Source of the DNA: Melioribacteraceae bacterium
Lineage (GTDB): Bacteria > Bacteroidota > Ignavibacteria > Ignavibacteriales > Melioribacteraceae
NCBI GenBank assembly: GCA_021739765.1
Contig: JAIPBD010000018.1
Location: 30,968 to 94,967, forward strand
Direction: 5' to 3'
Length of the DNA: 64,000 nt
This document shows, piece after piece, positions 11,262 through 41,303 of the stretch. Both the position numbers and the translations under genes were made by a program. Each line of letters begins with the position of its first letter. Position 1 is the first letter of the stretch. The notes beneath the pieces are model-generated. The model saw nothing but the letters and a program-made list of their open reading frames with translations, was not told the DNA's origin and searched no databases.

Positions 11262-11313
11262 TAACAGTTAACATGTTAAAAAATGAGTAAATAACTGTTA
11301 CAATTAACAGTAA
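11262..11313. promoter_or_regulatory. Paired TAAC-N-GTTA boxes in divergent regulator/CBM6 promoter region
   Basis: In this 328-nt intergenic region, TAACTGTTA (11292-11300) and TAACAGTAA (11305-11313) lie with a 4-nt spacer, centre to centre 13 bp. A third box, TAACAGTTA, sits at 11262-11270. The same pair geometry recurs at 26366-26387 and 41282-41303. The pair is about 125 nt before the lipoprotein start and 183 nt before the regulator start, so both divergent genes could be controlled. Confidence 0.65.
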
Positions 11314-11495
11314 CATCCATAATTATTTCGGTAATGTTTATTATTTTATTGACCACTACTCTCTAATAATTCCAGTGTGGAATATTAATTACTGCAGAAT
11401 TCTCTATCTTTAAAGGAATATTGAGTCTTAGTAAATCTGAAACCAAAACTGATTAAATATTTGCTCAACTTATTGGAAGAACTTTTTGGGAAAAT

Positions 11496-12761
11496 ATGTT
11501 AAGTAAAGAAGAAAAATTTCAATTATTAAATGATATTGTTGAGAATCCGGAATTCAAAACAACAAAAACATTTAATAAACTTCTAACATATCTGGTTGAA
11601 TCAACCATCAACGATGTAAAAATCAAAGAATATTCTATTGCCCAGGAAGTATTCGAGAAAGATCCCGATTTTAATCCGGCGGAAGATTCATCTGTCCGGG
11701 TTTATATCAGCAACCTTCGCAAGAAACTAGAAAACTACTACAATGACATCGGGAAGGACTCAAAATATCAAATTGTAATTCCGAAAGGTAAATATGAAGT
11801 CGAATTTCAAAATGCGAAACATTCTGAAAGAAGTACAAATTATGTTAAAATTGGTTATAAACATTTAATTACTTATTTATCTCTCGCCGTAATTATAGTA
11901 ATTCTCTCTGTCTTATTGTTGAAATCACATTTTTATGTTGCAGCCGGTGAACAAAGTATTAAAGAAAGCAAAATTTGGAGCGATATTTTAACTTCCGAAA
12001 ATCAGGTTGAAGTTGTTGTTGGCGATGATCTATTTTTTCTGGAAGAACCAATAGTTAAAGACACAACTCTCGAAAATATTAATGATAACGAGATAATTGT
12101 TAGAAGACATTATGTTAATACAAACGAAGAATTTGAGATATACAAAGAAAACCACAAATATAATGATCGAATAATAAAAAATCGGCTGACGTATACATTC
12201 TTCTCATTAATAAGCGTTACCTCGTTGCCGTCAATTTCTTTATTATTTGATTCTCGGGATGATTTTCACCTTCAGTATTCTTCAAATTTACATGTCAATG
12301 AAATTTTAAAAAACAATATCGTTTTTATCGGATCATTTAGAACATTATATTCTCTGGAGCAAGTTTTATCGGATGGCAAGATTAAATTTAAAGTTCGATA
12401 CGCAAAATCAACAATTGATGTTTTCGATAATGATTCTACTTATCATTTTGAAGTGGTTGGAGAACCCGATTTAGAACACGTTGATTATTGTCTCGTCAGA
12501 AAAATTCCCGGGCCAAATGATAATAAAATTATTTTATTCCTTTCGTTTTCGGAAGCCGCAATGGATGCAGCGATTTCTTCGATGTCAGACTTAGAAGGAT
12601 TGGAAAAAATCGAAAAATTATTCGAATCGCGTTATAATGAAATGCCCGAATATTTTGATATCATCTTTAAGAGTTCCGGTTTCGAAAGAACCGCATTCAA
12701 AACAAGCATCGCCTATTTTGACAAAATTGAACCGGACTCAATTTCACTTTGGGGGAATTAA
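11496..12761 (+). CDS. Membrane-anchored one-component transcriptional regulator (winged-helix-like N-terminus)
   Basis: The product has 421 residues. Residues 1-105 match the N-terminal domain seen in many acidobacterial and proteobacterial membrane regulators: a helical start, KEYSIAQEVFEKDPDFNPAEDSSVRVYISNLRKKL split over 45-78, then IVIPKGKYEVEF. This looks like a winged-helix DNA-binding unit. One membrane helix spans about 124-146. The remaining ~270 residues are extracytoplasmic, with IVFIGSFRT and a late GPNDNKIILFLSFSE segment, and may sense a ligand. It is the only plus-strand gene between 8 and 42 kb. It faces the CBM6 operon across a shared region with three operator-like boxes, which suggests it controls the locus and itself. 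Direct DNA binding is inferred. Confidence 0.7.
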   Translation: MLSKEEKFQLLNDIVENPEFKTTKTFNKLLTYLVESTINDVKIKEYSIAQEVFEKDPDFNPAEDSSVRVYISNLRKKLENYYNDIGKDSKYQIVIPKGKYEVEFQNAKHSERSTNYVKIGYKHLITYLSLAVIIVILSVLLLKSHFYVAAGEQSIKESKIWSDILTSENQVEVVVGDDLFFLEEPIVKDTTLENINDNEIIVRRHYVNTNEEFEIYKENHKYNDRIIKNRLTYTFFSLISVTSLPSISLLFDSRDDFHLQYSSNLHVNEILKNNIVFIGSFRTLYSLEQVLSDGKIKFKVRYAKSTIDVFDNDSTYHFEVVGEPDLEHVDYCLVRKIPGPNDNKIILFLSFSEAAMDAAISSMSDLEGLEKIEKLFESRYNEMPEYFDIIFKSSGFERTAFKTSIAYFDKIEPDSISLWGN

Positions 12762-12824
12762 TAATAGGTCGGTCCCCTATTCAAAAAACTCTCTAAATTT
12801 GATTTAACGAATAATCCTATTGAG

Positions 12825-13491: not shown

Positions 13492-15960
13492 TTAGTTTTT
13501 ATTAAATAAATTTCTATAAGTAAGCTTTTGCACAACCTTCCCGTCGGGTATTGATATTGTTGCTTCACAGTTATTGTTCAATTCGTTTGATTCGGGTATA
13601 TAATCCTCAGGATCAACCACAGCTTCGATAGAATAAGTACCGTTCTTAGCGATCCATGGTTGGGAACCGATACCGTTCCCGGCTGCAATCGTACTCATTC
13701 CTCCTGGTTCAATCTGATCTTGAAACGATGTCGCGAATTGAACAGTCTCACCATCAATTTTGAATTCGATTTTATGCTTCGATTTTGGAGATACTTTTGT
13801 TCCCCGGTTAAGCACGGAAACAATATAAGTTACTTGATCACCTTCTTTTGGGAATGCCGGAATGGATCGAATGTTTCGCACAATTAAATCGGGTTTGCCT
13901 CCCGCGTATTTAACTGAGATTGCTTTTCTTAAAGGCAGATTATCCGAGGAACCACCGACCATTATTTCATATTTCCCGGGAAGGACTAAATAACTGCCGG
14001 ACAATGAATCATAAGTATACAATTCTTCCGATGTTAACTTGAAAGAAATTGTTTCTGATTCACCTGGTTCGAGATAAATTTTATCAAAACCTTTTAGGTC
14101 TTTTACCGCCATATCAATTCCATTATCAACGGAAAGATAGAGCTGCGCAACTTCTTCACCGGAAAGTCCGCCGGAATTTGTTAAATCAAAAGAAACATCA
14201 ATTTCGTCTTCGATTGTCGGATCGGACGGAGTGATCGACAAATTTGCGTATCGAAAAGTTGTGTATGATAAACCGAATCCAAACGCATATTCAGGTTTAA
14301 TATTCTTGCTGTCGAACCATCTATAACCGATTCCATCTTTTGTTAAAGTTCTAAAGTCCATATTAATCGGTCGAAGTTGTTCGTCGTTTTTAGGAATCGT
14401 GACAGGTAGTTTACCCGATGGATTATAATTTCCAAAGAGTACATCAGTAATTGCTTTTCCCCCTTCTTGACCAGGATAAAATGAATAAATGATTCCAGCT
14501 ACATTTTTTTCAACTTTATTAATTGCGCAAGGTCCGCCGCTAATTATCACCAAAACAAAATTTTCATTTATTTTAGAAATTTCATTTATCAATTCATTTT
14601 GCACGCCCGGTAAATCGACTGTTCCGTTTATTCTGTCTCCGCCAATAAAATATCCTTCACCTTCGATTGTGCTGTCAATTCCGGCCACGAAAAGAACTAA
14701 ATCGGAGTTCGCAGCAATTAATTTTGCATTTTCAAAATCACTTTTGTCGTTACTATTAATTTCACAGCCTTGGGTATAATTAATTTTTTCTTCACCGATA
14801 AAATTTTTCATTCCTTCAAGAACAGTGATTTGATAAGGGGGAATAACGGCTGAGCTGCTGTGTCCATCCAAAGGGAGGTTATTTGCGTTTGGCCCTATAA
14901 CGGCAACAGATTTGATATCTTTTGAAAGAGGGAGAATCTGATTTTCGTTTTTAAGTAAAACAATGCTTCGTAATCCGCTTTGATATACAAGCTTTTTGTG
15001 CTTTTCGCTGTTTCTTACCCCCTCCGCAACTTTTGGTTGGCCATCTATCATTCCGGAAACAATTTTGGTTCGAAGAATATTTCTAACGGCATTATTTACA
15101 TATTTTACATCAAGTCTTCCTTCGTCAAGAAGTCCCGGTAATTCTTTAATATATAAATCGTTTCCTTCACAAAAATCCAATTCAGATTTAATGGCTTTTT
15201 CGGTGCTCCAAAACCCTCCCCAATCACACATGGTATAGAATTTAAATCCCCACATATCTCTTAAAGCAGTTTTTATAAGCAGATAATTTTCCGCTGATTT
15301 CGAACCGTTTACCAAATTGTAAGCGCACATAATTGACATCGCGCCGCCATACTGGACTGCTCTTTTCCAATGTGGGCTCCAAAATTCGAACAGACTTCTT
15401 TTGTCGATCAAATAATTATTTTCCTCGCGGTTGGCTTCAAACGTATTCATATTGTAATGTTTTATACTTCCAAATACCGCAGTTTCATTTTGTCCGAGAA
15501 TAAACGCCTCGGAAACTCTGCCGCCAAGGAATGGATCTTCTCCAAAAGTTTCCGGAGCTCTTCCATTTCTCGGATCGTTTAGCAAATCTAATGTCGGCCC
15601 GGCAATTCGGTGGCGGCCTCTGGAGGCTTGCTCTAAACTTATTGCCTTTCCTACTCTCCGAATTAAGTCCAAATCCCATGTTGCGGCTAATGCGATTGTA
15701 ACGGGAAAACATGACCAACCCGGATCACCGTTGCCGATTCCATGCGGTCCGTCACTGCCGGTAAATTGTGGAATTGATAATCGTTCATTTCCATCTGTAT
15801 TATAATAGAGCTGTTCGATTTTTTCTTTTTGAGACATGTGGTTGAGCAGATCATCGATTCTTTGGTCAAGCGGGTCCGATAAATTTTTATCTTGGGCATA
15901 TCCTTTCGATATGAAAAGGAGAAAGAAGAGCAGGATGAGTGATTTATAGATTGGAATCAT
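13492..15960 (-). CDS. Exported GH3 beta-glucosidase-like enzyme with CARDB domain
   Basis: The product has 822 residues. A signal peptide ends YAQ. The GH3 N-terminal barrel carries D246 (MCDWGG) as predicted nucleophile; a GH3 C-terminal alpha/beta domain and an FnIII-like domain (PGESETISF, then VGGSSDNLPL) follow. Residues about 690-800 (LIVRNIRSIPAFPKEGDQVTY ... EPGGMS ... NELNNN, shown in parts) match a CARDB-type Ig domain, an unusual addition. There is no T9SS tail, so it is probably periplasmic. Members of this family remove terminal beta-linked glucose or xylose. It follows the AGE-epimerase gene after about 270 nt and directly precedes the GH3 relic, so the relic may be an older paralogue. 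Confidence 0.88.
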   Translation of the reverse strand: MIPIYKSLILLFFLLFISKGYAQDKNLSDPLDQRIDDLLNHMSQKEKIEQLYYNTDGNERLSIPQFTGSDGPHGIGNGDPGWSCFPVTIALAATWDLDLIRRVGKAISLEQASRGRHRIAGPTLDLLNDPRNGRAPETFGEDPFLGGRVSEAFILGQNETAVFGSIKHYNMNTFEANREENNYLIDKRSLFEFWSPHWKRAVQYGGAMSIMCAYNLVNGSKSAENYLLIKTALRDMWGFKFYTMCDWGGFWSTEKAIKSELDFCEGNDLYIKELPGLLDEGRLDVKYVNNAVRNILRTKIVSGMIDGQPKVAEGVRNSEKHKKLVYQSGLRSIVLLKNENQILPLSKDIKSVAVIGPNANNLPLDGHSSSAVIPPYQITVLEGMKNFIGEEKINYTQGCEINSNDKSDFENAKLIAANSDLVLFVAGIDSTIEGEGYFIGGDRINGTVDLPGVQNELINEISKINENFVLVIISGGPCAINKVEKNVAGIIYSFYPGQEGGKAITDVLFGNYNPSGKLPVTIPKNDEQLRPINMDFRTLTKDGIGYRWFDSKNIKPEYAFGFGLSYTTFRYANLSITPSDPTIEDEIDVSFDLTNSGGLSGEEVAQLYLSVDNGIDMAVKDLKGFDKIYLEPGESETISFKLTSEELYTYDSLSGSYLVLPGKYEIMVGGSSDNLPLRKAISVKYAGGKPDLIVRNIRSIPAFPKEGDQVTYIVSVLNRGTKVSPKSKHKIEFKIDGETVQFATSFQDQIEPGGMSTIAAGNGIGSQPWIAKNGTYSIEAVVDPEDYIPESNELNNNCEATISIPDGKVVQKLTYRNLFNKN

Positions 15961-16107
15961 TTTTGTTTAACCTTGATTTTTATTTATAATAAATTCACCA
16001 ATTTGTTATTCGAACTAAGAACTATATTTAATCAAAACCATCTAATTTATGCTAGAAATTAAGTTTCGAATTCTCGGTAATATTATTATTTTTCAAAAAT
16101 TAAAGAA

Positions 16108-16213
16108 GGATGTTTCTGAATTTGGTCGATGATTGAAACATCCCTCCTAAGGAGTCACACGAGGATCATCCGGGATATTAATTTAACCGATTATCAACAA
16201 CCGAATATCCCGG
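16108..16213. repeat. Two consecutive inverted repeats between AGE and GH3 genes
   Basis: GGATGTTTC (16108-16116) pairs with GAAACATCC (16135-16143), and CCGGGATATT (16170-16179) pairs with AATATCCCGG (16204-16213). They lie just downstream of the AGE gene on its strand. Neither has a clear T-tract, so they may stabilise or process RNA rather than act as classic terminators. Confidence 0.55.
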
Positions 16214-16232
16214 TCCAGGTTGACTAAAACAT

Positions 16233-18008
16233 CTATCTTAACAAAATCATCTTTTTTGAAGCTAAGAAATTGGCAGCTTCCAACCTATAAACATAAAGTC
16301 CACTAGTAAGAGTTGAAGCATCAAAATTAACGGTATAATTTCCCGCGTCTTTAAATTCATTTACTAAAGTGGCCACTTCCCGACCTAATACATCGAAGAT
16401 TTTAATACTAACATTACTACTTTGTGAAAGTGTGAATTTGATATAGGTATTTGGATTGAATGGATTCGGATAATTCTGCTCTAATTTGAAATCTGCCGGA
16501 ATGTTGTCATTCGCAATTGCAGTCGCATCGGTAGTTGTATAAATAACTTTAAAAATTCCATGTGTTCCGGCCGGAACATTAAGAATTCGATCGGCAGATG
16601 AAAAATCCGTATATAACTCTCCATCCAATTCAACATTTTTGATAATTAGTTTATCGTCTTCAATAGCAATTGGATAAAGGAAAATACTTCGTGCAGAATC
16701 GGCCGGTTCATATTTGTAAAATAATTCAACCGGTTTTTTGTGCAGATATAAATTGCCATACATGTATGTGTGAAAACCGAGCTCGATCGAATGATAACCG
16801 GCCTTCCAATAACCGGCTTTATCTTTATTATTAACCGAACCAAATCTGTTTGATGTATTATAAACTTCACCATAAACCGGATCGGCAAAATATGTCATAA
16901 AAAAATCTAAAATTTCATCAGCCATCTTTAAGAACTTCTCGTCTTTTGAGATATAGTAATTCATTACACTTGAATTAAAACCTTGTTGCAGCTCCCACCA
17001 CACTTTGTTTGTGTTGTGCAAATTTCCGGATAATCCATCCGCGGTAGAATAATTGCCTCCATTTTGGTGATCATAACCTTTATCTAATACCTCTTCAATT
17101 ATGTAAGTTGAGAATTCCATATACTCGGGTTTAGGATCAATCAAGTAAGCGCGTTCAGCACACCAGGCGGTTTTTAAGGAATGACCGGTAAAAACAAAAG
17201 TATCACTTAAATCCGGTTCCCAATTATCATTATAACTTTCGGGAAAACTGTAATTAAATAGATCCATTGCCGGCCAAATATGATCAATGATATTATCAGC
17301 GAGAATGATTAATCGCTCCTTATACTTTGATTCGCCTGTTAACAAATACATACTTAAAACGTGGGTTGTAACACCATCCATAGTTGGTGTAAATCCTTTT
17401 CCTCGCGGATTCGACCAATCAAGATCCGCTTCATCGTAATAGCCGTGATAATCCGGACGTGAGTCCCACAATTTTTCGTCAATAATTTTTCTGCCTTCCA
17501 ATAATTTCGCCCAATCTTTTGAGTTCCGAGTAGCGTCAACCATTGCTGAAATTCCAAGCAAAGCATAATGCTGGAAGAATGAATTTCTGTAGCTTGAATT
17601 AGCTCCACCGCTATTTAGACTTCCATCCCGGTTAAACTCATTAAACCATCCGCCGTGCACATCATCCCATGCGTTAGCATACATAAAGTCGAGAGCTCCT
17701 CTGGCATAACTTAGAAATGTAGTATCGCCGGTAAGCATAAATGCTCTTACCATCCCATAAGCGTTTCTGGATTGGCTCAACATGGTTTTACTGCTGCCGG
17801 TTGCGTTGCCTTCCCTTGAGACATTTTCATAAAATCCGCCGTAAGTTCTATCGTAACTATTAAACCAAAAAGTCGCACAACTGTCTACGAATCCTTTCAT
17901 AAGGTCCGGATTTTCTAAATAGCTGCTCTGATAATTATATTGTCCTGTCACCGATGAAACCGATAACAGAAGAAAAACGGCGAAAACGAAATATTTAGAT
18001 ATATTCAT
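16233..18008 (-). CDS. Secreted AGE-family epimerase/isomerase (cellobiose 2-epimerase-like) with T9SS tail
   Basis: The product has 591 residues. A signal peptide ends VTGQ. Residues about 30-430 match the N-acylglucosamine 2-epimerase (alpha/alpha)6 barrel: GGFYENVSREG, SQSRNAYGMVRAF, GGWFNEFNRDG, FTGHSLKTAWCAERA, KVWWELQQGFNS, and KAGYHSIELGFH supplying catalytic-type histidines. A small beta-rich module (about 435-500) and a T9SS tail (NYPNPFNPNT) follow. Known AGE enzymes epimerise or isomerise free sugars (GlcNAc, mannose, cellobiose) and are normally cytoplasmic, so outer-membrane export is odd. With GH94 and GH5 in the locus, cello-oligosaccharide or manno-oligosaccharide epimerisation is plausible but unproven; it could also be a non-enzymatic binding protein. 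Confidence 0.85.
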   Translation of the reverse strand: MNISKYFVFAVFLLLSVSSVTGQYNYQSSYLENPDLMKGFVDSCATFWFNSYDRTYGGFYENVSREGNATGSSKTMLSQSRNAYGMVRAFMLTGDTTFLSYARGALDFMYANAWDDVHGGWFNEFNRDGSLNSGGANSSYRNSFFQHYALLGISAMVDATRNSKDWAKLLEGRKIIDEKLWDSRPDYHGYYDEADLDWSNPRGKGFTPTMDGVTTHVLSMYLLTGESKYKERLIILADNIIDHIWPAMDLFNYSFPESYNDNWEPDLSDTFVFTGHSLKTAWCAERAYLIDPKPEYMEFSTYIIEEVLDKGYDHQNGGNYSTADGLSGNLHNTNKVWWELQQGFNSSVMNYYISKDEKFLKMADEILDFFMTYFADPVYGEVYNTSNRFGSVNNKDKAGYWKAGYHSIELGFHTYMYGNLYLHKKPVELFYKYEPADSARSIFLYPIAIEDDKLIIKNVELDGELYTDFSSADRILNVPAGTHGIFKVIYTTTDATAIANDNIPADFKLEQNYPNPFNPNTYIKFTLSQSSNVSIKIFDVLGREVATLVNEFKDAGNYTVNFDASTLTSGLYVYRLEAANFLASKKMILLR

Positions 18009-18200
18009 ATAATTTTATTCCTAATTATTCGAATGACTACCAACTAAATTGTGCAATGTTGATTGTTATTATTTTTTGCCATTACCCGACGAAGTCATTC
18101 TTTCGATTGATCTGTAATTCACAATTTTCCGTAAAATGAAATTATTTTCGGAATTAGATTCAAAATTTTCTACGGTATATAACTGAGCTGATATAAGATT

Positions 18201-18256
18201 TATGAAACACAACATCATATCACAATGAGTTGTGAATGTTGATATATTGTTTCATA
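18201..18256. repeat. Long imperfect hairpin between GH2 and AGE genes
   Basis: TATGAAACA (18201-18209) pairs with TGTTTCATA (18248-18256). Inside this, CAACAT...TCACAA pairs with TTGTGA...ATGTTG around a TGAG loop, leaving small bulges. It lies 47 nt downstream of the GH2 stop and about 190 nt before the AGE start, so it could be a processing stem or part of the AGE leader. Confidence 0.5.
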
Positions 18257-18302
18257 GCAGTCTTCCGATTTTTTATTTACAATTAAGCTTAGGAGGTTAG
18301 AA

Positions 18303-20090
18303 TCATTCATTGCTAATCGAGTCATAAAACTCTTTAAGTACATAGAATGCCTTCTTCTTGTCACCCTTATCCGTAACTAATCCCTTCACATTCCAAAAAT
18401 TTTGTATCCTGGGTTGATGTCTTCTTGGGGATTTAAAATCTTTTAAGATCCAAGGAGTCATACCTTTTATAAAATCAACTTTTTCGAACATTTTAATATT
18501 TTCGATATATAAATCTTCTTGATATTCCTCAGTCCATCTTTCAAGTTTATCGCCATGATTCCCAAACATCGCGCCACCACCGAATTCACTTATCACTACC
18601 GGTTTATTGTAAATAGTTTCCCATTTTATGTCAGCGCATTTTTCCGGTAAACCATCATACCATCCGATGTAAGCGTTGCAACCCAATACATCAACCAACT
18701 CGCCAAAAGGATCATCAATAAGAAGCGTTTTATCATCTGTATAATGCCTTTCCATCGCGGCAGTAATTAACCTGGAAGGATCCAGCTCACGTGCTGTTGA
18801 GACTAAATCGGAAAGGAAATGAAATCGAGGTTCTGATACGGGAGTTTCATTCGCCATCGACCATAATATAATCGAGGCTCGATTTTTATCCCTGTTAATC
18901 ATTGTCGCTAATTGATTTTCGGCATTTTTGTAAGTGGCCTCTTTCTCCCAAGAAATTGTCCAATAGACCGGAATCTCAGCCCAGACCAATAATCCAAGTT
19001 CATCTGCCATTTTTACCATTGCCTCATTATGAGTATAATGAGCTAATCTGACATAGTTGCAAGAGAGCTCCTTCGCCCAGCCTAGCAATACTTTTGCGTG
19101 GTCTTTGGAAAACGCCCGAGCACCATTTTGGTAAGCCGCCTCTTCGTGAATTGAAATTCCTTTCAAATAAATTGTTTTCCCGTTTAGCAGTATATCCGTT
19201 CCACGAGTTTCGATTGTTCGAAATCCGATTTTATCAGTAATCATATCCGTTTCTGATTCTATTTTTACTTGATACAATTTGGGAGAATTGGGAGACCATA
19301 AAACCAACTCTGCGTTTATTTCAAATTCAACAATTCCATTGTTATCAGTCTCTACTTCTTTGGTAATTGATGCCTCATCAATCGTTACGGTTATCTTTTG
19401 TTTTTTTGAGGAGCCATCTAATTTTATTTTACCTGCAATTGTTCCTTTATCCCCTTTTTTTAACTGAATAGAATATTCAGAGATGAAAGTTTTTTCAGTC
19501 TCGATCAGTGTAACCGGTCTTGTAATACCTCCATAGTTGTACCAATCTGTATTAACAGTAGGCACAGCGTCTTGCAATCTTTTATTATCAACTTTAACAA
19601 CAACAAAGTTACCTTTAGCTTTAATTTTATCGGTTATTTCATACTGGAAAGGAGTAAAACCGCCTTCATGATGTCCAAGCATTTCACCGTTGAGATATAC
19701 TTTAGCATCATAATTAACGGCTCCAAAATGTATAAAAAGCCTTTTCGCACTACTCAGGTCGTAATCAAATGAATTTTTATACCAAACCGTTCCTTCATAG
19801 AATAGAAGTTTTTCCATTTGTGAATTCCAATCACCCGGGACGTATAACATCTCATCGGTATCGAAACTGTACTCTAATAATTCTGATTCATTCTTTTCAA
19901 TTGCGTTCTTGAAGTAACCTTCTGCATGTGGTTCATATCGATAATCATAATATCCATTTTCATAAGGATCGATAATTATGTTCCATTTACCATTTAAACT
20001 TGTTGTCAATCTGTTTTCAATATTTATCATCGTTTGCGCAAAAGTATTAAGACTTACAAAAAATAGGAGATATGTTAAAATTTGTTTCAT
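18303..20090 (-). CDS. Exported GH2 glycosidase, beta-glucuronidase/galactosidase type
   Basis: The product has 595 residues. A signal peptide ends TFAQ. The three GH2 parts are present: sugar-binding domain (about 25-200, with YEGTVWYKN and YGGITRPVTL), Ig-like domain (about 205-295) and TIM barrel (about 296-595). Acid/base is E415 in MANET and the nucleophile is E502 in ISEFGG. Near the C-terminus, FWNVKGLVTD provides an N-x-K motif which in beta-glucuronidases contacts the substrate carboxylate, so beta-glucuronidase is the favoured guess. The compact length, without extra C-terminal domains, also fits. There is no T9SS tail, so it is probably periplasmic. Confidence 0.85.
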   Translation of the reverse strand: MKQILTYLLFFVSLNTFAQTMINIENRLTTSLNGKWNIIIDPYENGYYDYRYEPHAEGYFKNAIEKNESELLEYSFDTDEMLYVPGDWNSQMEKLLFYEGTVWYKNSFDYDLSSAKRLFIHFGAVNYDAKVYLNGEMLGHHEGGFTPFQYEITDKIKAKGNFVVVKVDNKRLQDAVPTVNTDWYNYGGITRPVTLIETEKTFISEYSIQLKKGDKGTIAGKIKLDGSSKKQKITVTIDEASITKEVETDNNGIVEFEINAELVLWSPNSPKLYQVKIESETDMITDKIGFRTIETRGTDILLNGKTIYLKGISIHEEAAYQNGARAFSKDHAKVLLGWAKELSCNYVRLAHYTHNEAMVKMADELGLLVWAEIPVYWTISWEKEATYKNAENQLATMINRDKNRASIILWSMANETPVSEPRFHFLSDLVSTARELDPSRLITAAMERHYTDDKTLLIDDPFGELVDVLGCNAYIGWYDGLPEKCADIKWETIYNKPVVISEFGGGAMFGNHGDKLERWTEEYQEDLYIENIKMFEKVDFIKGMTPWILKDFKSPRRHQPRIQNFWNVKGLVTDKGDKKKAFYVLKEFYDSISNE

Positions 20091-20201
20091 TGTGACTCAT
20101 TAAGTATTTGTTCGAGATTGAGTTAATCAAAAAAAAACTCCAAAATAAATTGATCAATAGAATTGTTTTATTGCTCGCTGATAATTCTGAAGCCAAAAAA
20201 C

Positions 20202-20285
20202 ATTGGGTTACTCATTAATCAAAAATTAATGATCAATAAATAACCCAATCGGAAAAGAACTGTGCAACTTTGAAAAAAGTTGCAC
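20202..20285 (-). terminator. Tandem hairpins ending the TonB-receptor/CBM9 operon
   Basis: Just past the minus-strand stop at 20299, GTGCAACTTT (20262-20271) pairs perfectly with AAAGTTGCAC (20276-20285). Further on, ATTGGGTTA (20202-20210) pairs with TAACCCAAT (20241-20249), with an inner CATTAAT/ATTAATG stem. Only short T-runs follow, so termination is likely but not certain. Confidence 0.6.
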
Positions 20286-20298
20286 GGTGTACATCAAA

Positions 20299-26392: not shown

Positions 26393-26625
26393 GCTTATTA
26401 ACAATTATTGACAGCAATTGACGGGGCAAAACAAAAAATGACAAATTTTAAAGTTGGGACGGAATAAAATGTGAAAGTGAATTCTTATAAGAACGATATG
26501 AGCATTTTCGAAGTACTTAACATCAATTCTAGCAGCTTTGTCTATATGTGGTAGAGTTTATATTTCCAGGCGAATTGAATATTCGAGACATCCTTTAGTT
26601 CTATAATTTATGATTTGTGAAAAAC

Positions 26626-28873: not shown

Positions 28874-28911
28874 TTTGTCTTTTTCCTTTCTGAATTATTG
28901 ATCTTCGTTTA

Positions 28912-29955: not shown

Positions 29956-29984
29956 TTTATTTACACGATAATTTATTACTCGAA

Positions 29985-30926: not shown

Positions 30927-30941
30927 AATTTAAATTCCTCT

Positions 30942-32459: not shown

Positions 32460-32505
32460 TCTGTTCCTCTCAGCTTATTTATTTAATTAGTAACACGAAA
32501 AATCT

Positions 32506-33156
32506 TTATAGTTCAAAAATCGAACTGAAAGTTGCCGTTGTAGATTTATTAATATTGTGCGAAGTTACAGCCAATCCAACAAATAATTTAACCGGTAGCT
32601 TAAGTTCAAATTGAGTATATTTTTTCCAATTTTCACCATCCGTACCGGCAAAACCGGAAAAGACTTGACCGGTTCTTTTAAGTCGAATCCAAGTTTCGGG
32701 ATAATTTACCGGAAATTCGGGGAGACCTTCACAACTCTCGGGGTAAATGGCCTCCATTTCACCGCCCTTTGTAGCTCTAAACTGAAATTCGTATCCTCCA
32801 TTATTTTTATTTCGCGCGTTATTATCGGGAAATACTTGAAAAAAAATGTGTTTACTCTCTTCGGTTAGATCCTCTCTTGCCATTATGCCTGCTTTTGTAT
32901 AAAGATCGGTCGGGTCAAGATTTTCAATTTTAGTGCAAATATCAAAATTCCAATCATGCCCGAAATAGGAAAAATGAAATTCATCCTTTCTCCCCCATAT
33001 ATCTTCTCCACATGCGGTTATTTTAATTTGTTCATTTGAAGATTCAACGCTTCCAAGAACCAGAGGTGCGGGTTTGCCGATATCAATATGTTTAAAACTG
33101 TTCATTGGAATCCGAACTGTTTTAACAACTTTTAAATTTAATTTTTTGTCATTCAA
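32506..33156 (-). CDS. DUF1349 concanavalin-like protein, cytoplasmic
   Basis: The product has 216 residues and no signal peptide. Motifs GEDIWGRKDEFHF, YTKAGIMARED, WIRLKRTG and VGLAVTSHN place it in the DUF1349/YesU-like jelly-roll family, often coded in plant-polysaccharide loci. The start is TTG with GAGG 5 nt upstream. It lies 15 nt after the GH105-like gene and 46 nt before the TolB-fusion gene, whose first domain is its paralogue. YesU-like proteins have no established reaction; a lectin-like or hydrolase role would be a guess. Confidence 0.75.
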   Translation of the reverse strand: MNDKKLNLKVVKTVRIPMNSFKHIDIGKPAPLVLGSVESSNEQIKITACGEDIWGRKDEFHFSYFGHDWNFDICTKIENLDPTDLYTKAGIMAREDLTEESKHIFFQVFPDNNARNKNNGGYEFQFRATKGGEMEAIYPESCEGLPEFPVNYPETWIRLKRTGQVFSGFAGTDGENWKKYTQFELKLPVKLFVGLAVTSHNINKSTTATFSSIFEL

Positions 33157-33171
33157 TCCTACCTCGTTATT

Positions 33172-34251
33172 TTAATTCTCTTTGTTTCGGCTAAGTTCTT
33201 TAAGCTTATTTCTGGCAGATTCCATCATTATATAGAACGCTTGTCCTTCCGCAGCTCTTCCGGGCGAGTTGAAATAAGGAGCGCCACAAACACCCTGGAC
33301 AAATCCATTTTCATCTATTTTATTTCTTACCGCAGAACGCATTAATTCAGCTTTGGGCATAAATTGACTTTCCAGCCACCCACTCTTAATTCCACAATAT
33401 ATTGTGTAGGCGACCATCTGGGATAGATTAGTTTCAATAAAACTGTTTTTATCATCTATTATATTGTGAAATAATCCATCCTTTCTTAAAAACTTTAGAC
33501 AACCTTCCAAATTTTCAATTAGATAAATGATTAAAATTTCACGCTCTTTTTCATATTCGACCGGTAATAAATTTATAACTCGACAAATGCCAACCAGCGC
33601 CCAACCATTCCCGACACCCCAGAACTTCTCATTTATAAATTCTTTTTTATCATCGTGCCATCTATGTGAATACAATCTCGCATTGCTATTCCATAAAATT
33701 TCTCGCATTCCTACAATCTGTTTTATTGCTTCAGCAAAATTATTCGCCGCTGCCAAAAAAGGCGGAGCCATATACATTGAATCAATCCAAATCTCAGGTG
33801 AATTAATTGTGTGATAAAGAATTCCGTTGTTTGATCTTGGGGCAGATTCAACCAAATAATTCAACATTTTTTCGGCGGCAAATATCAAAACGTTATCACC
33901 CGTAATTTTCGCGGCGTGAAGTAAAGCTTCGCCTGAAGCGGCGGGATCAGTAACTCCGTTATCGGTATATAAAACTGAAAGCCTTCCATCCTCGGTTTGA
34001 CGAAGAACTGATTCATAAGCCATCAGAACAACTGTTTCAATATCGCCACACTCTAAGAAAGCTTGCGCGGAAACTCCTTGTTCCCAGGAAGCACGTTGCA
34101 TCGATAGAAGTGCATTTTTAACTTTGCGGAGAATTTGCACATCATCGGAAGGGTTTATGCTACCGTCAACCGCACAACCACCCAATAATGACGGGGAAAT
34201 AGTGGCACCTCCCATCAAGACAGCACCTTGTATAAATTTGCGCCTTCTCAT
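33172..34251 (-). CDS. GH105/GH88-like unsaturated uronyl hydrolase, Tat lipoprotein
   Basis: The product has about 359 residues from the ATG at 34251; an in-frame TTG at 34266 is less likely because the twin-arginine motif RRRKFIQG then lies right at the N-terminus. The signal ends SLLGGC, predicting a Tat-exported lipoprotein. The rest is an (alpha/alpha)6 barrel like GH105/YteR: MQRASWEQGV near the start, WIDSMYMAPPFLAAA, WGVGNGWALVGICRV, NLSQMVAYTIY and GRAAEGQAFYIMM. GH88/GH105 enzymes remove unsaturated uronic acid left by polysaccharide lyases, acting by hydration at a catalytic Asp. The match to YteR is partial, so the exact reaction is uncertain. Confidence 0.75.
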   Translation of the reverse strand: MRRRKFIQGAVLMGGATISPSLLGGCAVDGSINPSDDVQILRKVKNALLSMQRASWEQGVSAQAFLECGDIETVVLMAYESVLRQTEDGRLSVLYTDNGVTDPAASGEALLHAAKITGDNVLIFAAEKMLNYLVESAPRSNNGILYHTINSPEIWIDSMYMAPPFLAAANNFAEAIKQIVGMREILWNSNARLYSHRWHDDKKEFINEKFWGVGNGWALVGICRVINLLPVEYEKEREILIIYLIENLEGCLKFLRKDGLFHNIIDDKNSFIETNLSQMVAYTIYCGIKSGWLESQFMPKAELMRSAVRNKIDENGFVQGVCGAPYFNSPGRAAEGQAFYIMMESARNKLKELSRNKEN

Positions 34252-34419
34252 AAACGATTGATTCAATCTCCAATTTTTACAGAATTCTATTCGATGTTAC
34301 ATTCTTTCGGATAATTCTTTCATCATTTAACTCGAATAATTAAATTTTTTATTAATACATCCAAGTTTTTTAATCATTATGCGACATTTATCGAAGATCA
34401 ATTCTCGATTAACTTCTAT

Positions 34420-36795
34420 TTATTTCAGTATTATCATTTTCTTAACTTCCGTAAAATGATCCGTTTCTATCTGGTAGAAATAAACACCACTCGGTAAATT
34501 TGAACCATCGAACGAAAATTCATAAACTCCACTTTGTTTTTCTTCATTCACCGGAATGGAAATAACTTCTCCTAATGAATTAACTATCTTGAGTTTTACA
34601 AAACCCTTTTCGGCCAATGAATAAGAAATATTTGTCGAAGGATTAAACGGATTCGGATGATTTTGGAATAAGCGAAACTCAAAAACTTCCAGAATATCTT
34701 CGTCTTCAATATCCGTTGGAACGTTGGTTAAAGTTAAAGTATCTTCCGTAACAACAACTCCGCCAACCATTGCTTTTGCATATAAAATGTTATTTGTTAA
34801 ACTGATATCATCCCACTGAAAACGAGTGTTATTTAATGGTCCGGCATTTTTAGTTCTAACCCCAAATGAATTTTCGCCCAAACCATTAAAAAGTTCAACT
34901 TCTTCCGCGTTGCTGTAAACCCAAACATCTTTTGCTCCACCGTCTTCAAATCTATCCAACCAGGTTTCGGAAACAATGTATACCATCGGTGATTTTTCAG
35001 GGCTTGTGTAGTGTGATTTGTAAAAGTAAGCTACGTCTTTAGGGGTTTTTCTGTCGTGCATGAACAAACCTTTCTGATTCATATATGGAATAGGGTTTGT
35101 TGATCGGTCTCTTCTCGGTGAGGCAAAATCAAACGCGATCCAGCTCAGATGCCCGGGACAAATATTTTTATTTTGTTCTCCGCGTGCAGTTTTGTATTCG
35201 TGGTAAATTCCGGCATATTCTTGACTCCATTTGGGAGCGTCTTCATTATGATCCCATAATGTAATACTTGAACCGTATTCACCAATCAGTTTTAAGGGAT
35301 TATAACTGGTATAAACTCCCGAATACCAACCACTCCAATCTTGGGGTGAATAGACATCCACTAAACTCCAATTAGAAGAAAATCTAAGGTTACACGAAGT
35401 TGTCGGCCTCGTCGGATCCAATTCCTTTGCGAGAGAATTCAGTTCGGTAAAAAAAGTATTTGTATAAGCTTCGCTGGCTTCCGAGCTTTGATCTGATTCG
35501 TTACCCAATCCCCATAATATTACACTTGGGTGATTATAATGTTCGGTGATCATTTCCGTTAATTGCTGCTTAGCGTTATCAATAAATTCGGGTTGTTCAG
35601 AGATACAAGACGCAACCGGAATTTCGAGCCACACAAATATTCCCAAACTATCACAAGCATTAAGAATTGCTTCGTCTGCCGGATAATGCGCATGGCGCAA
35701 AAAGTTAATTCCCAAACTTTTAATTATCTCTACATCTTCTCTATGTTGAGCGTCAGTAAGAGCGTAGCCGAATCCTTCGCGATCTTGATGCCTGTTCGTT
35801 CCGCGTAAAAATAGTTTTTCCCCGTTTATTTGGAATGCGGCTACATTTCTCAATACAAACCATCTAAATCCAAGAGGATTTGTTACATGATCAAGAACGG
35901 TTGTTCCGATAGAAACTTTTGTCTCCGCCGTGTATAAATAAGGACTGTCGGGTGACCATAATTTTGGTGATGAAATATTATCGCTTAAATGTTCATATGA
36001 AGCCGTATCGTTTGCCGCAATTTCTACGGAAGCTGTAATTGTTTTTATTACCGCGTTCTTATCATCATAAATATTTGTTGTAATTGTAAATTGCTGAGTT
36101 GTGTTTGTAAAGTTTATAATTTCAGATATGACCTTTACATTTGCAGAACTTTCGGAAACTTCAGGAGTTGAAATAAGGACTTTCTTAATTTTTACATCAC
36201 CGGTTTTAATTAACCAGACGTCACGATAAATTCCACCATAAACCGCAAAGTCAAAAGAAGCCGGATAAGGATTAAAAGGAACTTGCATAAAAGGAGCAAC
36301 TTGAGAGTTGTTTGAGTTATCAACCTTTACGGAAATAATGTTTTGATCCGAACCGAAATTCGCGTAGTCAGTAATATCGAATGAAAACATAGTGTATCCG
36401 CCTCTATGCTGACCTAAATACTGCCCGTTAATCCAAACATCGGCAATTAAACATGCTGCATCAAATTGCAAAAAAATCTTTTTCCCAATATCTGTCGAAT
36501 CGATATTGAGCGATTTTCTGTACCAACCGATTCCTTTGTACATTGAGGGTCCCGTAAAAACATCGTCATGAACGCCATCTATACCACCATTGTAGTCATG
36601 AGGAATTGTAATATCATACCATTGAGAATCATCATAATTTACTTGTGAGGCTTCAGCAATATCTTCGCGAATGAATTTCCATCCGTCATTGTTAATATTA
36701 ACTTTTTCACGGCCTGATTGGGCGACCGAAATCGTAGACAAAAATGTGAAAAAAACAAATGCCGAGACTAAAGAATATTGTATTCGTTCTTTCAT
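34420..36795 (-). CDS. Secreted GH2 beta-galactosidase-type enzyme with T9SS tail
   Basis: The product has 791 residues. A signal peptide ends SVAQ. The sugar-binding domain (about 30-200, IPHDYNGG, YKGIGWYRKSL, GGIYRDVWL) is followed by an Ig-like domain (about 205-315) and TIM barrel (about 316-600) with acid/base E433 in LGNESD and nucleophile E506 in IGEYGSS. A further beta domain and a T9SS tail follow, here with the variant NHPNPFNPST. Family activities include beta-galactosidase, beta-mannosidase and beta-glucuronidase; no residue seen settles which. The outer-surface location implies trimming of polymer side groups. A 153-nt gap separates it from the GH105-like gene and may hold an internal promoter. 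Confidence 0.86.
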   Translation of the reverse strand: MKERIQYSLVSAFVFFTFLSTISVAQSGREKVNINNDGWKFIREDIAEASQVNYDDSQWYDITIPHDYNGGIDGVHDDVFTGPSMYKGIGWYRKSLNIDSTDIGKKIFLQFDAACLIADVWINGQYLGQHRGGYTMFSFDITDYANFGSDQNIISVKVDNSNNSQVAPFMQVPFNPYPASFDFAVYGGIYRDVWLIKTGDVKIKKVLISTPEVSESSANVKVISEIINFTNTTQQFTITTNIYDDKNAVIKTITASVEIAANDTASYEHLSDNISSPKLWSPDSPYLYTAETKVSIGTTVLDHVTNPLGFRWFVLRNVAAFQINGEKLFLRGTNRHQDREGFGYALTDAQHREDVEIIKSLGINFLRHAHYPADEAILNACDSLGIFVWLEIPVASCISEQPEFIDNAKQQLTEMITEHYNHPSVILWGLGNESDQSSEASEAYTNTFFTELNSLAKELDPTRPTTSCNLRFSSNWSLVDVYSPQDWSGWYSGVYTSYNPLKLIGEYGSSITLWDHNEDAPKWSQEYAGIYHEYKTARGEQNKNICPGHLSWIAFDFASPRRDRSTNPIPYMNQKGLFMHDRKTPKDVAYFYKSHYTSPEKSPMVYIVSETWLDRFEDGGAKDVWVYSNAEEVELFNGLGENSFGVRTKNAGPLNNTRFQWDDISLTNNILYAKAMVGGVVVTEDTLTLTNVPTDIEDEDILEVFEFRLFQNHPNPFNPSTNISYSLAEKGFVKLKIVNSLGEVISIPVNEEKQSGVYEFSFDGSNLPSGVYFYQIETDHFTEVKKMIILK

Positions 36796-36883
36796 AATAA
36801 TTTTCTCATTTGTGAATAAAAGATTCTATTATCTTAATAATTCATCTGGTTAGATAAAACTTCCGACCCTGCGGAGATCCATT

Positions 36884-39322
36884 CTAACCTAAAACCACTT
36901 GAACCGAATAATCCTTTTCAGGCTCACCAATCGGGATTAGGTTTCCCGGTTGCTCCACCGAATCAATCAGAAGTGATTTTACCCCTTTACTTACATGATT
37001 AGGATTTAGAATGGTGATATGATAAACTGAGCCCCGGAATCTTCGTGTAACTTTGAACTTATCCCATTCTTTTGGAATACACGGGTCAACTCGTAAACCA
37101 TTAAATTGAGGTTGAATACCTAAGATATTCTGGGATAATGTAATAAAAGACCACGCGGCTGTTCCCGTTAACCAAGAATTTTTTCCTTCTCCCATGGTTG
37201 GCGCATCTCTTCCCGCTGTCATTTGACTATAAACATAAGGCTCGGAACGGTACACATCAATTTCAGCTTCCTTTGTCGGCGGACAAATACTTTTATAATA
37301 TTCCATTGCCCTATCGCCATTTCCCACAATTGTTTCCGCAATTTGGATCCACGTGTTATTGTGGGTAAAAATTCCGGCATTCTCTTTATATCCGGGTGGA
37401 TATGAACTAACTTCACCTAACCTTGTGTGATAATTTTGAAAAGCCGGTTGTTGAAGAATTATACCTTTTTCGGTAAATAATTTTTCATTAACGCTATCCA
37501 GTGCTTTCTGAGCGAATCCATTCTTCAATCCGGCACCGCCGAGAATTGCCCAGCCCTGACTTTCAATAAAAATCTTCCCTTCTTCATTTTCGTTTGAACC
37601 AATTTTGGTTCCAAATGCGTCATAGGCACGTAAAAACCAATCACCATCCCAACCATGATCGTAAATTGTATTCCTCATATTTTCGGATACGGATGAATAC
37701 AATTCTTTTTTATCTTCCTCTCCGATAAAATCAAAAATACCGCTCAGTTCATCCGCCGCTTTACAGAACAACCCGGCGATCATCACAGATTCCGCGACTC
37801 GATCGTTTTCGATATGTCCGGCAAGTTGAAAACTTTCACCCGGTTCGGTAGAGAAACAGTTCAAATTCAAACAATCATTCCAATCGGCATGACCAATCAA
37901 AGGCAATCCATGCGGACCGAGATTATTCAAAGTATATTCAATTGAGATTATTAAATGATCGAGTAATGTTGCGTTTTTATCATCTTTATCCGCAAAACCG
38001 ATTTTTTCGTCGAGAATATCTTTTTTGCCGGTTTCTTTAATATACGCTGATGTGGAAAGTAACAGCCAAAGCGGATCATCATTAAAACCGCCCCCTATTT
38101 CAGAATTGCCCTTTTTAGTTAGAGGTTGATATTGATGATAACACGTTCCATCGGATAGTTGGGTTGAAGCAATATCCAAAATCCTTTGTCTGGCTCTTTC
38201 GGGAATCATATGAACGAATCCAAGAACATCCTGATTACTATCTCGATATCCCATTCCTCTTCCTATTCCGGATTCATAAAGCGAAGCAGAACGGGACATA
38301 TTAAAAGTGACCATACATTGGTACTGGTTCCAAATATTCGCCATTCTGGAAACTATCGGATCGGGAGTTTCTGTGTGATAATTGGATAATAATGCATCCC
38401 AGTTGGAATTATGTTCCGCAAATGCTTGCAATACTTTTGAATCATCAGAATACTTTTCACGAACTGCATGAAATTCATCTTTCCGAACTGTTCCGTCATC
38501 ATTAAATTTATTTTCAACCGGATTTTCAGCATAACCAAGAAAGAAGTTGATGGTTTTTTCTTCTCCGGGTTTCAGTGAAATATCGATTTGTTGAACACCA
38601 AGCGGCAACCAACCGTAAGCGGTTCCGTTTGAGCAACCATCACCCAAAATTGCTTTTGGATTATGAAACCCGTTATGCAAACCAATAAAATCATCTCTGC
38701 TTGTATCGAATCCGGATATCTTGGCATCAGAGGAAAAATATGCATAATGATTTCTCCTTTCACGGTATTCGGTTTTATGGAAAATTGTTCCATTTTCAAC
38801 TTCAACCTGTCCTGTGGAATAATTTCGCTGGAAATTCGTCATATCATCTTGGGCATCCCACAAGCACCATTCAACCAATCCCCACATTCTTAGTTCTTTG
38901 GTAACTTTGGAATTATTTTTGATTTTTACATGCCAGATTTCATTTCTCGCTCCGGGCGGAATAAAATATAGAACAGAAACTTCAACTCCGTTTTTTGATC
39001 CGAGGATTTTGGTATAACCCATTCCGTGTCTACATTCATATTTATCCAGAGCTGTACAAACCGGCTTCCACATCGGATTCCATAAGGTATCTCCATCTTT
39101 AATGTAGATGTATCTGCCATTGCTGTCCATCGGAATATTATTGTAACGATACCGGGTTAAACGGCGAAGTTTTGCATCTTTATAAAATGAATATCCGCCG
39201 GCGGTGTTTGAAATAATTCCGAAAAAATCATTTGTTCCAAGATAATTTATCCATGGAAGTGGTGTATCGGGTCGAGTAATTACATACTCTCTGTTTTTAT
39301 CATCAAAAAAACCGTAGCTCAT
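36884..39322 (-). CDS. GH94 cellobiose phosphorylase, cytosolic
   Basis: The product has 812 residues with no signal peptide, the usual length for cellobiose phosphorylase. Residues numbered with a one-residue upstream extension: GIGRGMGYRDSNQD (about 353-366) supplies the subsite -1 Arg and Asp, and GHADWNDCLN (about 479-487) contains the catalytic-acid Asp484. EGKIFIESQGWA, ENAGIFTHNNTW and RFRGSVYHITILNP are also typical. It converts cellobiose and phosphate to glucose-1-phosphate and glucose, saving an ATP. Chitobiose or laminaribiose phosphorylase is a less likely alternative. ATG at 39322 is chosen because AAAGGA lies 6 nt upstream. It lies only 28 nt after the symporter gene, pairing import with phosphorolysis. 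Confidence 0.92.
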   Translation of the reverse strand: MSYGFFDDKNREYVITRPDTPLPWINYLGTNDFFGIISNTAGGYSFYKDAKLRRLTRYRYNNIPMDSNGRYIYIKDGDTLWNPMWKPVCTALDKYECRHGMGYTKILGSKNGVEVSVLYFIPPGARNEIWHVKIKNNSKVTKELRMWGLVEWCLWDAQDDMTNFQRNYSTGQVEVENGTIFHKTEYRERRNHYAYFSSDAKISGFDTSRDDFIGLHNGFHNPKAILGDGCSNGTAYGWLPLGVQQIDISLKPGEEKTINFFLGYAENPVENKFNDDGTVRKDEFHAVREKYSDDSKVLQAFAEHNSNWDALLSNYHTETPDPIVSRMANIWNQYQCMVTFNMSRSASLYESGIGRGMGYRDSNQDVLGFVHMIPERARQRILDIASTQLSDGTCYHQYQPLTKKGNSEIGGGFNDDPLWLLLSTSAYIKETGKKDILDEKIGFADKDDKNATLLDHLIISIEYTLNNLGPHGLPLIGHADWNDCLNLNCFSTEPGESFQLAGHIENDRVAESVMIAGLFCKAADELSGIFDFIGEEDKKELYSSVSENMRNTIYDHGWDGDWFLRAYDAFGTKIGSNENEEGKIFIESQGWAILGGAGLKNGFAQKALDSVNEKLFTEKGIILQQPAFQNYHTRLGEVSSYPPGYKENAGIFTHNNTWIQIAETIVGNGDRAMEYYKSICPPTKEAEIDVYRSEPYVYSQMTAGRDAPTMGEGKNSWLTGTAAWSFITLSQNILGIQPQFNGLRVDPCIPKEWDKFKVTRRFRGSVYHITILNPNHVSKGVKSLLIDSVEQPGNLIPIGEPEKDYSVQVVLG

Positions 39323-39350
39323 CAAATTTCCTTTTGGAATTATTTACAAA

Positions 39351-41216
39351 TCAAACATCATATTCATGCAGGCGATCATACCATGTTTTCTTAAGCACAA
39401 ATGAAAGTATAACCGCAATCAGAAGGGTTACAAAAGTGGCTATGAATTCATGAAATACCAGGTACATCGGCAATGCGACCAGAGAGGTTTGCCATAAGAT
39501 TCCAATAAATATGTTAAACGCATCTCTTTTAAAATTATTATTCTTTGCAAATTCCGGATAATCTTTAACGACCAATTCATGAATTGGCTTCCAAAATCCC
39601 CAAGGCTTAACAGTTCGATAAAAATCTTTAAGCGTTTGTTCGTCGGTTGGAGGTGTAAGGTAAGTCGCAACAAAACATCCGATTAACGAACCGATTAGAA
39701 TAACCGGGAAATAATAAAGAATTCTTATATCGGGCGCGAAATCCGGAAACAAATAGGCCAGAACTTCAGGAGATACCATTGGAATTGCGGAAATAATAAT
39801 TCCGGAGAGCATTCCATAAAAATATCCGTGAGCATTAAATCTCCACCAATACCATTTTAATACGTTTGCCGCAGTATAACCGCCCCACAATGCTGATACC
39901 AGCAACTGAACCACCTGGTTTACGTTTTTCGCTTGAATACCCAGATAAATACTCACTATAACTACAATTGCACCGATGAGATAATTAGTTGTACGCAACT
40001 TATTCTTTGACGCGGTCGGGTTTATATATTTCAAATAAATATCGTTGGTAACGTACGCTTGGGCTGCATTTAATGTTCCGGAAAATGTTGACATAAAGGC
40101 AGCCAATAGTCCCGCAAGCAGCATTCCCAGCAATCCCGTTGGGACAAATTGATTAATAGTTGACGGTAATATTTGTTCGAAATCCAAGACTCCGGCAACA
40201 TTCAGATCAAGTTCTTGGTAAAAAATAATTCCGAGTGCCGCAAATCCGGCAATCATCAAATACCTGACAGGCATCAATATCGCGGAGACAAATCCACTCA
40301 TTTTCGCTGCCTCTGAAGGTGATTTTGTAGCAAGTATTTTTTGCATGTCATAATTTGGAGCCGGTCCGGCAAAACTCACAAGAACCCCTTTAAATACCAT
40401 CATCATAAACATAGCCGAGAATAGAGAATAACCATCTTCCGCTATTTTTGAATTAACCTCCGTGATTATTCCGGTCCAATCAATATCCAGCGAACTACCA
40501 AAAAACGGTGACATCCAACCATCAGGCACAACCAGTGAATGCGATCCAACCGCCATAAACGCTATAATTCCGATCGCAATTGATGCGATGGTCATTATCG
40601 TGTATTGTAAAACATCCGCCCAGACAATGCTTGTCATTCCTCCGAGCAATGTATAGAAAACGGCAAACATGGTAAAAACGATACCATACAAATGTGGAAC
40701 GTATTCCAACGGTAAATCGAGTTGAAGAAATTGATTTACATATTCCCAGGGAATAAAAATCTCCATAAATTTACCAAGACCGATAAAACCGTAAGCAAGA
40801 AATCCTAAACCGCCGATCAGGGCAAAAGCGACTACAATTGTGTGGGAAAGTGTGCTGCCTCCACCTTTGCCAAACCGAGTTTCAATCCACTGCGCACCGG
40901 TAGTTACATTACTTCTCCTTAACCATGCGGAAAGAAATACCATTAAAAATATTTGATTAAAAACCGGCCAAAGCCATGGGATCCAGATACTTTTTAGACC
41001 GTAAAGAAACGCCAGAGTAACAAGCCACATAGTTCCGGAAATATCGAACATTCCGGAGGCGTTCGATAAACCGAGCATATACCACGGAAGTTTATTTCCA
41101 CCGAGGAAATAACTTCCCATATTATTTGAAGCTCGTTTAGAAAGAAAAGAACCGATAAATATTGTGGCGGCGAGATAAACTAATATTATGAGTACATCAA
41201 TAAAGTGTAGTTGCAT
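39351..41216 (-). CDS. Sodium:solute symporter (SSS family), probable disaccharide importer
   Basis: The product has about 621 residues from the ATG at 41216; an in-frame TTG at 41225 adds three. It has about 13-15 membrane helices. Family marks include AATIFIGSFLSKRASNNMGSYF (in parts) near residue 20, YFLGGNKLPWYMLGLSN, and LLAGLLAAFMSTFSGTLNAAQAYVTND (in parts), where Ser/Thr residues coordinate sodium. Relatives import sugars, amino acids or carboxylates. Its position as first gene of the unit that includes GH94 suggests cellobiose or a related disaccharide. The operator pair at 41282-41303 lies about 66 nt upstream. Confidence 0.88.
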   Translation of the reverse strand: MQLHFIDVLIILVYLAATIFIGSFLSKRASNNMGSYFLGGNKLPWYMLGLSNASGMFDISGTMWLVTLAFLYGLKSIWIPWLWPVFNQIFLMVFLSAWLRRSNVTTGAQWIETRFGKGGGSTLSHTIVVAFALIGGLGFLAYGFIGLGKFMEIFIPWEYVNQFLQLDLPLEYVPHLYGIVFTMFAVFYTLLGGMTSIVWADVLQYTIMTIASIAIGIIAFMAVGSHSLVVPDGWMSPFFGSSLDIDWTGIITEVNSKIAEDGYSLFSAMFMMMVFKGVLVSFAGPAPNYDMQKILATKSPSEAAKMSGFVSAILMPVRYLMIAGFAALGIIFYQELDLNVAGVLDFEQILPSTINQFVPTGLLGMLLAGLLAAFMSTFSGTLNAAQAYVTNDIYLKYINPTASKNKLRTTNYLIGAIVVIVSIYLGIQAKNVNQVVQLLVSALWGGYTAANVLKWYWWRFNAHGYFYGMLSGIIISAIPMVSPEVLAYLFPDFAPDIRILYYFPVILIGSLIGCFVATYLTPPTDEQTLKDFYRTVKPWGFWKPIHELVVKDYPEFAKNNNFKRDAFNIFIGILWQTSLVALPMYLVFHEFIATFVTLLIAVILSFVLKKTWYDRLHEYDV

Positions 41217-41281
41217 TTGAGCCAATAATGATATAGAAAATTATTGAAAAATAAGGAAATAATACCTTTTTATTCTGTTTA

Positions 41282-41303
41282 TAACAGTTATTTATAACAG
41301 TTA
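41282..41303. promoter_or_regulatory. Paired TAACAGTTA operator boxes before the symporter operon
   Basis: TAACAGTTA occurs at 41282-41290 and 41295-41303 with spacer TTTA, as part of a 13-bp tandem repeat (41278-41303). Centres are 13 bp apart, as in the two other locus promoters. The pair lies about 66 nt before the symporter ATG, a position compatible with direct control of RNA polymerase. Confidence 0.7.

Follow-up and report, generated by a model that had tools for sequence, protein, structure and literature searches.

The window analysed here, a stretch of 64,000 nucleotides from a Melioribacteraceae bacterium, harbors a carbohydrate locus with genes for glycosidases, carbohydrate-binding proteins, a TonB-dependent receptor, a symporter and a candidate regulator. 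Three intergenic sites of this locus share a 22-bp element built of two 9-bp boxes. Judged from sequence comparison, these sites are probably the operators of one membrane-anchored one-component regulator, the protein encoded at 11496-12761, a reading to which we assign a probability of about 85%. A preliminary description of this DNA had reported three pairs of 9-mers with centres exactly 13 bp apart, all lying between genes. Both observations were borne out, since a pattern scan of the window recovered TWACWGTTA-N4-TAACAGTWA three times with 0 mismatches and a box distance of 13 bp, and all three sites lie outside every open reading frame (ORF) of at least 100 amino acids (aa). The perfect 32-bp palindrome described around the second site was likewise confirmed by reading. 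When up to three mismatches to the 22-bp pattern were allowed, nine matches were obtained in the window, both strands counted, against 0.40 expected (100 shuffles, maximum 4). Each 9-mer is itself a near palindrome, TAAC-N-GTTA, and thus an inverted and a direct arrangement of the boxes are indistinguishable. Operator 1 lies about 124 bp from the CBM6 gene and 182 bp from the regulator gene, operator 2 about 319 bp from the TonB receptor gene and operator 3 about 56-64 bp from the symporter gene, the latter varying with the start codon chosen.

The sites are rare in the organism's own genome (4.54 Mb, 37 contigs). Four perfect sites and one with a single mismatch were present, while a backwards control gave 0 at up to one mismatch. 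All five are intergenic and stand in front of genes of two carbohydrate loci, the two sites outside the window (C5:38351 and C5:46408) belonging to a second such locus; no pairs with 13-bp spacing are scattered over unrelated intergenic regions at this level. A stricter pattern with a free spacer of 0-8 bases, TAACNGTWA-N-TAACNGTWA, which the site at 26366 does not fit, hit the genome four times and always with a spacer of 4, compared to one hit in the control. In 76 other genomes of the family no perfect site was detected, and the 16 one-mismatch matches (13 in the control) are background. At up to two mismatches the own genome gave 11 sites, as did the backwards control. The six sites added at this level were dropped as a class, since five of them lie inside ORFs and there is no excess over the control. 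The sole intergenic one, C4:378456, is a possible to probable sixth site marking a possible third locus, and is graded no higher because of the equal control count.

The two-box element is not confined to the window. A discovery set was gathered from 80 sources (the window, L016, L044-L068 and L083-L135), in which 63 regulators had a match of more than 800 bases; after removal of three duplicates and four with less than 150 bp upstream, 56 were kept, and loci with shorter matches, mostly alphaproteobacterial, were left unused. All 7-9-mers in the 300 bp upstream of these 56 regulators, the window's included, were counted against dinucleotide shuffles with no preset motif. The top 9-mer was TAACAGTTA, present in 14 regions compared to 0.4 expected. 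Next came AACGGTTAA and similar words, and TAACCGTTA ranked fifth (11 regions, 0.3 expected). Exact TAACNGTTA occurred in 25 of the 56 upstream regions of 350 bp; leaving out the window, 24/55 homologs carried it, compared to 0.66 in shuffles (maximum 3). Among 41 homologs gathered later the count was 19, with 0.41 in shuffles (maximum 2, 200 rounds). This later set had lost 13 rows (11 duplicates, one short upstream region, one short match), and one of its source searches gave loci for 30 of 46 matches. Three kept discovery rows (L047, L110 and the second gene of L114) are without a proper start codon and their upstream windows are therefore off; furthermore, L112 and L114 are close copies from one genome.

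The box is concentrated in front of the regulators. In the same loci, window included, the DNA before the regulators had 14.3 boxes per 10 kb, compared to 1.44 in the remaining intergenic DNA and 0.28 in ORFs, a density about ten and fifty times higher, respectively. The other intergenic boxes number 11, including window site 3 twice, a repeat copy of the regulator upstream region in L059 and the second operator of L053. Homologs preceded by the box belong to Melioribacteraceae, Flavobacteriaceae, KSB1 and Catenovulum. Conservation of the sites, on which the preliminary description had made its reading depend, is thus seen in part: no other kind of 9-mer is as enriched as TAACNGTTA in front of the regulator homologs, and the later ones show it as well, but the loci of the closest homologs show no intergenic pair in the DNA compared. 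The conservation seen concerns the regulator genes of the family, many of which have a divergent TonB gene on the far side of the box.

The two-box plan is shared as well. When the surroundings of 50 exact boxes were scanned for a partner (at least 5/6 letters of AACNGTT), one was found 29 times at 12 bp, where 0.8 were expected, five times at 11 bp, twice at 10 bp, once at 13 bp (the window's own) and six times at 19 bp, the latter mostly where Flavobacteriaceae carry three boxes. By these counts, 13 bp is the variant of the window species in this sample. A direct-repeat lag spectrum upstream of the 56 homologs was weak, with lag 10 strongest (5/56 above z 2.5) and none at lag 11. By eye, 11-bp direct repeats of the TTWTTAACATG type lie upstream in L052, L053, L055, L058, L060 and L068, which were not significant in the lag test; in L053 the form is repeated in front of an adjacent gene. 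In a search for second operator copies within the homolog loci (rows of at least 20/28 bases), this repeat matched the operator itself (27/28). L101 gave 28/28, L044 gave 26/28 with a copy holding only TAACAGTGA, and the remaining rows resembled shuffled controls.

The TonB promoter has a second link to the regulator family. Contiguous with operator 2 runs an array of GTNAA direct repeats. Among 188 loci, every match to a three-repeat array either stands before a regulator of the family or coincides with window site 2. Some rows show the same place more than once, so that the net count is seven regulators and site 2.

Table 1. Sites, candidate regulator and putative target genes in the window
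Feature	Position	Strand	Remarks
Candidate regulator	11496..12761	+	N-terminal winged-helix-like domain ~1-105, hydrophobic segment 124-142, C-terminal domain without Pfam match
Single exact box TAACAGTTA	11262..11270	.	Position -234, upstream of regulator and CBM6/GH5 unit
Operator 1, TAACTGTTA-CAAT-TAACAGTAA	11292..11313	.	Between divergent CBM6/GH5 unit and regulator
Operator 2, TTACTGTTA-TTAA-TAACAGTAA (26366-26387), within 32-bp palindrome	26361..26392	.	Before TonB receptor
Operator 3, TAACAGTTA-TTTA-TAACAGTTA	41282..41303	.	Before symporter gene
GTNAA direct repeats, 10-bp period	26379..26422	-	Contiguous with operator 2; 0 in shuffles
CBM6 protein	10475..11167	-	First gene of putative target unit
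GH5 + CBM6 + type IX secretion system (T9SS) tail	8384..10441	-	Closest solved structures named endoglucanase H
TonB-dependent receptor, putative target	23032..26046	-	TIGR01782 above its cut-off
CBM9 protein, GH2, AGE-type epimerase with T9SS tail, GH3	13492..22935	-	Downstream of receptor; gaps ~96 to 294 bp; presumably co-transcribed
Nine same-strand genes after operator 3	26675..41225	-	Presumably co-transcribed

The candidate regulator shows a hydropathy peak of 2.92 at its single membrane segment. Such a segment passes the threshold in 92 of 95 homologs of at least 350 aa, and a second one in four. In the window regulator and 30 aligned proteins, Pfam detects neither a kinase nor a receiver nor any further signalling domain of the cytoplasm, and 10 of the 30 match Trans_reg_C at E ≤0.01. 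In the own genome the family comprises, at E ≤0.01, the regulator and one paralog on contig C28, whose recognition helix differs (RSHMYS). This paralog (L016:5990-10590) is divergent from a 991-aa ORF of TonB-receptor size and is preceded by an element of its own, TAACATGTTATAACATTGTTA, which varies the box as a 10-mer.

Of 80 genomes of the family, 17 contain relatives, the own genome included, and among the matches listed are Melioribacteraceae, KSB1, Neomarinimicrobiota, Flavobacteriaceae, Cellvibrionaceae, Catenovulum and others. A divergent neighbour gene lies beside 50 of the 56 regulators. Of these neighbours 45 were scanned, four of less than 200 aa and one of L114 being left out, with 21 CarboxypepD_reg, 18 TonB plug and 4 GH88 matches. 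The genome of Flavobacterium sp. 7A (L105, L112, L114, and G220 with a protein identical to that of L105) holds six matches to the family, which suggests a lineage expansion resembling that of hybrid two-component systems. In the draft genomes G076:C365, G038:C108 and G073:C117 the reading frame of the homolog is split or interrupted by stops, possibly through decay or sequencing errors.

Recognition helix and operator appear to co-vary. None of the twelve homologs with the helix IRSYISNLRKKL or a close form has TAACNGTTA, and 11 of them carry a GCAATYNAC-type site. Exact TAACNGTTA is likewise missing from the four homologs whose helix is of the RSHxYS form, while among the remaining 81 homologs TAACNGTTA is present in 44 and the GCAATYNAC-type motif in two. 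This association is a strong hint, in which shared ancestry is not separated from recognition. In the IRSYISN-helix homologs L142, L145, L182, L185, L092, L094 and L065, near-palindromes GCAATYMAC..GT..ATTGC stand before the regulator, some of them after GTRAA-type repeats.

By their families, the genes behind the sites point to the breakdown of plant polysaccharides. The nine-gene run of the window consists, in order, of an SSF symporter, GH94, GH2, GH88, a protein with a sub-threshold DUF1349 match, a PD40 protein, a sugar isomerase-like protein, GH5 and GH3; the best solved relatives of the GH94 protein are cellobiose phosphorylases. At the C5 locus, C5:38351 precedes an aldo/keto reductase gene heading five same-strand genes, the last encoding a GDSL-type esterase, and C5:46408 precedes a GH5-CBM6 gene, whose GH5 domain has endoglucanase H as best structure match, as does the 8384-10441 protein of the window. 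At C4:378456, the distance to the first of two genes matching SASA-type esterases is 96 bp; behind them come genes for an alpha-galactosidase (Melibiase_2), CotH, GDSL and GH26 proteins, and two LacI-family genes are also present there. Based on the endoglucanase-type GH5, GH94, beta-glucosidase-type GH3 and AGE epimerase of the window, the GH5-CBM6 protein and GDSL esterase of C5 and the esterases, alpha-galactosidase and GH26 of C4, the substrate may be a beta-1,4-glucan or an acetylated galactoglucomannan. A chondroitinase B-type protein (Pfam; window 4604-6928) adjoins the locus, with no paired site in front.

The rarity of the sites in the genome, their position and the return of the box in front of related regulators support the proposal of the preliminary description, that one regulator's binding site governs uptake, binding and breakdown genes together. 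Several points weigh against assigning these sites to the 11496-12761 protein. Its DNA-binding domain matches Trans_reg_C with an E-value of 1.4e-4 and 22.3 bits, below the Pfam cut-off of 26.2, and the profile matches to the solved structures of ArlR and DrrD are weak (E 0.04-0.09). The exact box is absent upstream of 31 of the 56 discovery and 22 of the 41 later homologs, and the latter are new sequences which come partly from clades of the discovery set. The GCAATYNAC motif and the helix grouping were defined after reading the sequences, so that their association is no blind test, and the distance between operator 2 and the TonB receptor gene is long. Furthermore, the five closest homologs (L044, L045, L046, L047 and L061; 38-49% identity over their pieces) show no intergenic paired box in the DNA compared at their loci. 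Here, L044 has single boxes with one mismatch only, L046 starts at a contig edge and is without upstream DNA, and in L047 and L061 the gene is broken or partial; the 22-bp pattern at up to three mismatches gave 0 sites in L044, L046, L047 and L061 and one in L045, inside an ORF.

Concerning the mode of action, we lean toward a sugar-induced activation of the targets. The regulator could instead be a repressor that is released by the sugar. In Flavobacteriaceae the box often starts 34-50 bp before the start codon of the regulator, from where a bound protein could block the promoter. On the other hand, the long operator-to-gene distance at site 2 speaks against repression, and CadC, a well-studied protein of like layout, is described as an activator (PMC5430869). 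Repression is therefore doubtful, but it is the alternative to be taken most seriously.

The sites could also be true operators of another regulator, such as a second transcription factor accompanying loci of this kind, with the 11496-12761 protein being a mere neighbour or acting through it. Both the loci of the closest homologs and the weakly recognised DNA-binding domain would agree with this. However, the box recurs before homologs of several groups, whose divergent neighbours are varied as a whole, and its absence coincides with a different recognition helix, which renders a separate binder improbable. That the sites are chance or low-complexity AT-rich palindromes without a regulatory role is very remote despite their AT-richness and the equal counts at up to two mismatches, given the five sites against none in the control at up to one mismatch, the perfect sites confined to this genome among those compared, their exclusive position at carbohydrate loci and the enrichment before homologous regulators.

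For the one-component regulator, the following mechanism would fit. Two DNA-binding domains of a membrane-held dimer would each contact one TAACNGTTA box, the two boxes being about one helical turn apart, with a spacing of 13 bp here and, in most relatives, of 12 or 11 bp. Outside the cytoplasm, the protein would sense an oligosaccharide or a signal from a partner and convert it into a change of transcription, most likely activation. Predicted targets are the receptor, the binding proteins, the symporter, the glycosidases and the regulator itself.

In its layout, the regulator is ToxR/CadC-like and may work like such a system. It shares with these regulators one membrane helix and the lack of a kinase or receiver. 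An N-terminal winged helix is predicted from weak matches, the C-terminal domain would by its layout lie outside the cytoplasm and sense a signal there, and the AT-rich paired sites found here by comparison would be its tandem targets. For CadC, two AT-rich sites in Cad1 with the consensus TTAxxxxT, arranged head to head and bound via the winged-helix domain, have been described (PMC5430869). In contrast, the family of the window has a longer box, a spacing of 11-13 bp and links to TonB receptors and glycan enzymes; the whole window regulator finds no relative among solved structures at E ≤1 and its outer domain belongs to no Pfam family. Its assignment to that group is provisional, because the DNA-binding fold is weakly recognised. 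It resembles OmpR/PhoB-type domains in a weak match to their profiles (Trans_reg_C, ArlR, DrrD) and in tandem sites spaced by roughly one turn of the helix, but it stays below the curated cut-off, lacks a receiver domain and is membrane-anchored.

Hybrid two-component and extracytoplasmic function (ECF) sigma/anti-sigma systems likewise sense across the membrane and control receptor and enzyme genes. The window regulator differs as a single protein in which Pfam finds no histidine kinase, receiver, AraC or sigma-70-like domain, ECF genes elsewhere in the genome not having been searched for; nor does it join a LacI helix-turn-helix to a periplasmic-binding-like domain. A review of hemicellulase regulation, in whose main text neither CadC nor winged occurs as a word, names hybrid two-component systems, ECF systems and catabolite control as canonical (PMC10766802). 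Transmembrane regulators are reported to be enriched in Bacteroidota in a survey whose main text is without the terms motif and binding site (PMC10269533). Among the matches listed from the open-access literature, no title or abstract opening concerns the regulator family or its operator, and this widespread family is apparently undescribed.

We consider it moderately probable that this family represents a further class of glycan-locus regulators, beside the hybrid two-component and ECF systems and with an operator code of its own. It would range over Melioribacteraceae, other Bacteroidota, KSB1, Neomarinimicrobiota and some Gammaproteobacteria. The code would consist of TAACNGTTA pairs for one helix and GCAATYNAC-type sites for another, with a spacing of 11, 12 or 13 bp by lineage.

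An anonymous gene thereby becomes a candidate regulator for which the operator is defined and a regulon can be predicted, with five or six promoters spread over two or three loci. The box may be used to read the regulons of related regulators in uncultured polysaccharide degraders. Furthermore, the apparent co-variation of helix and operator, together with the lineage-specific spacing, would represent a natural experiment on DNA selection by winged-helix proteins that are tethered to a membrane.

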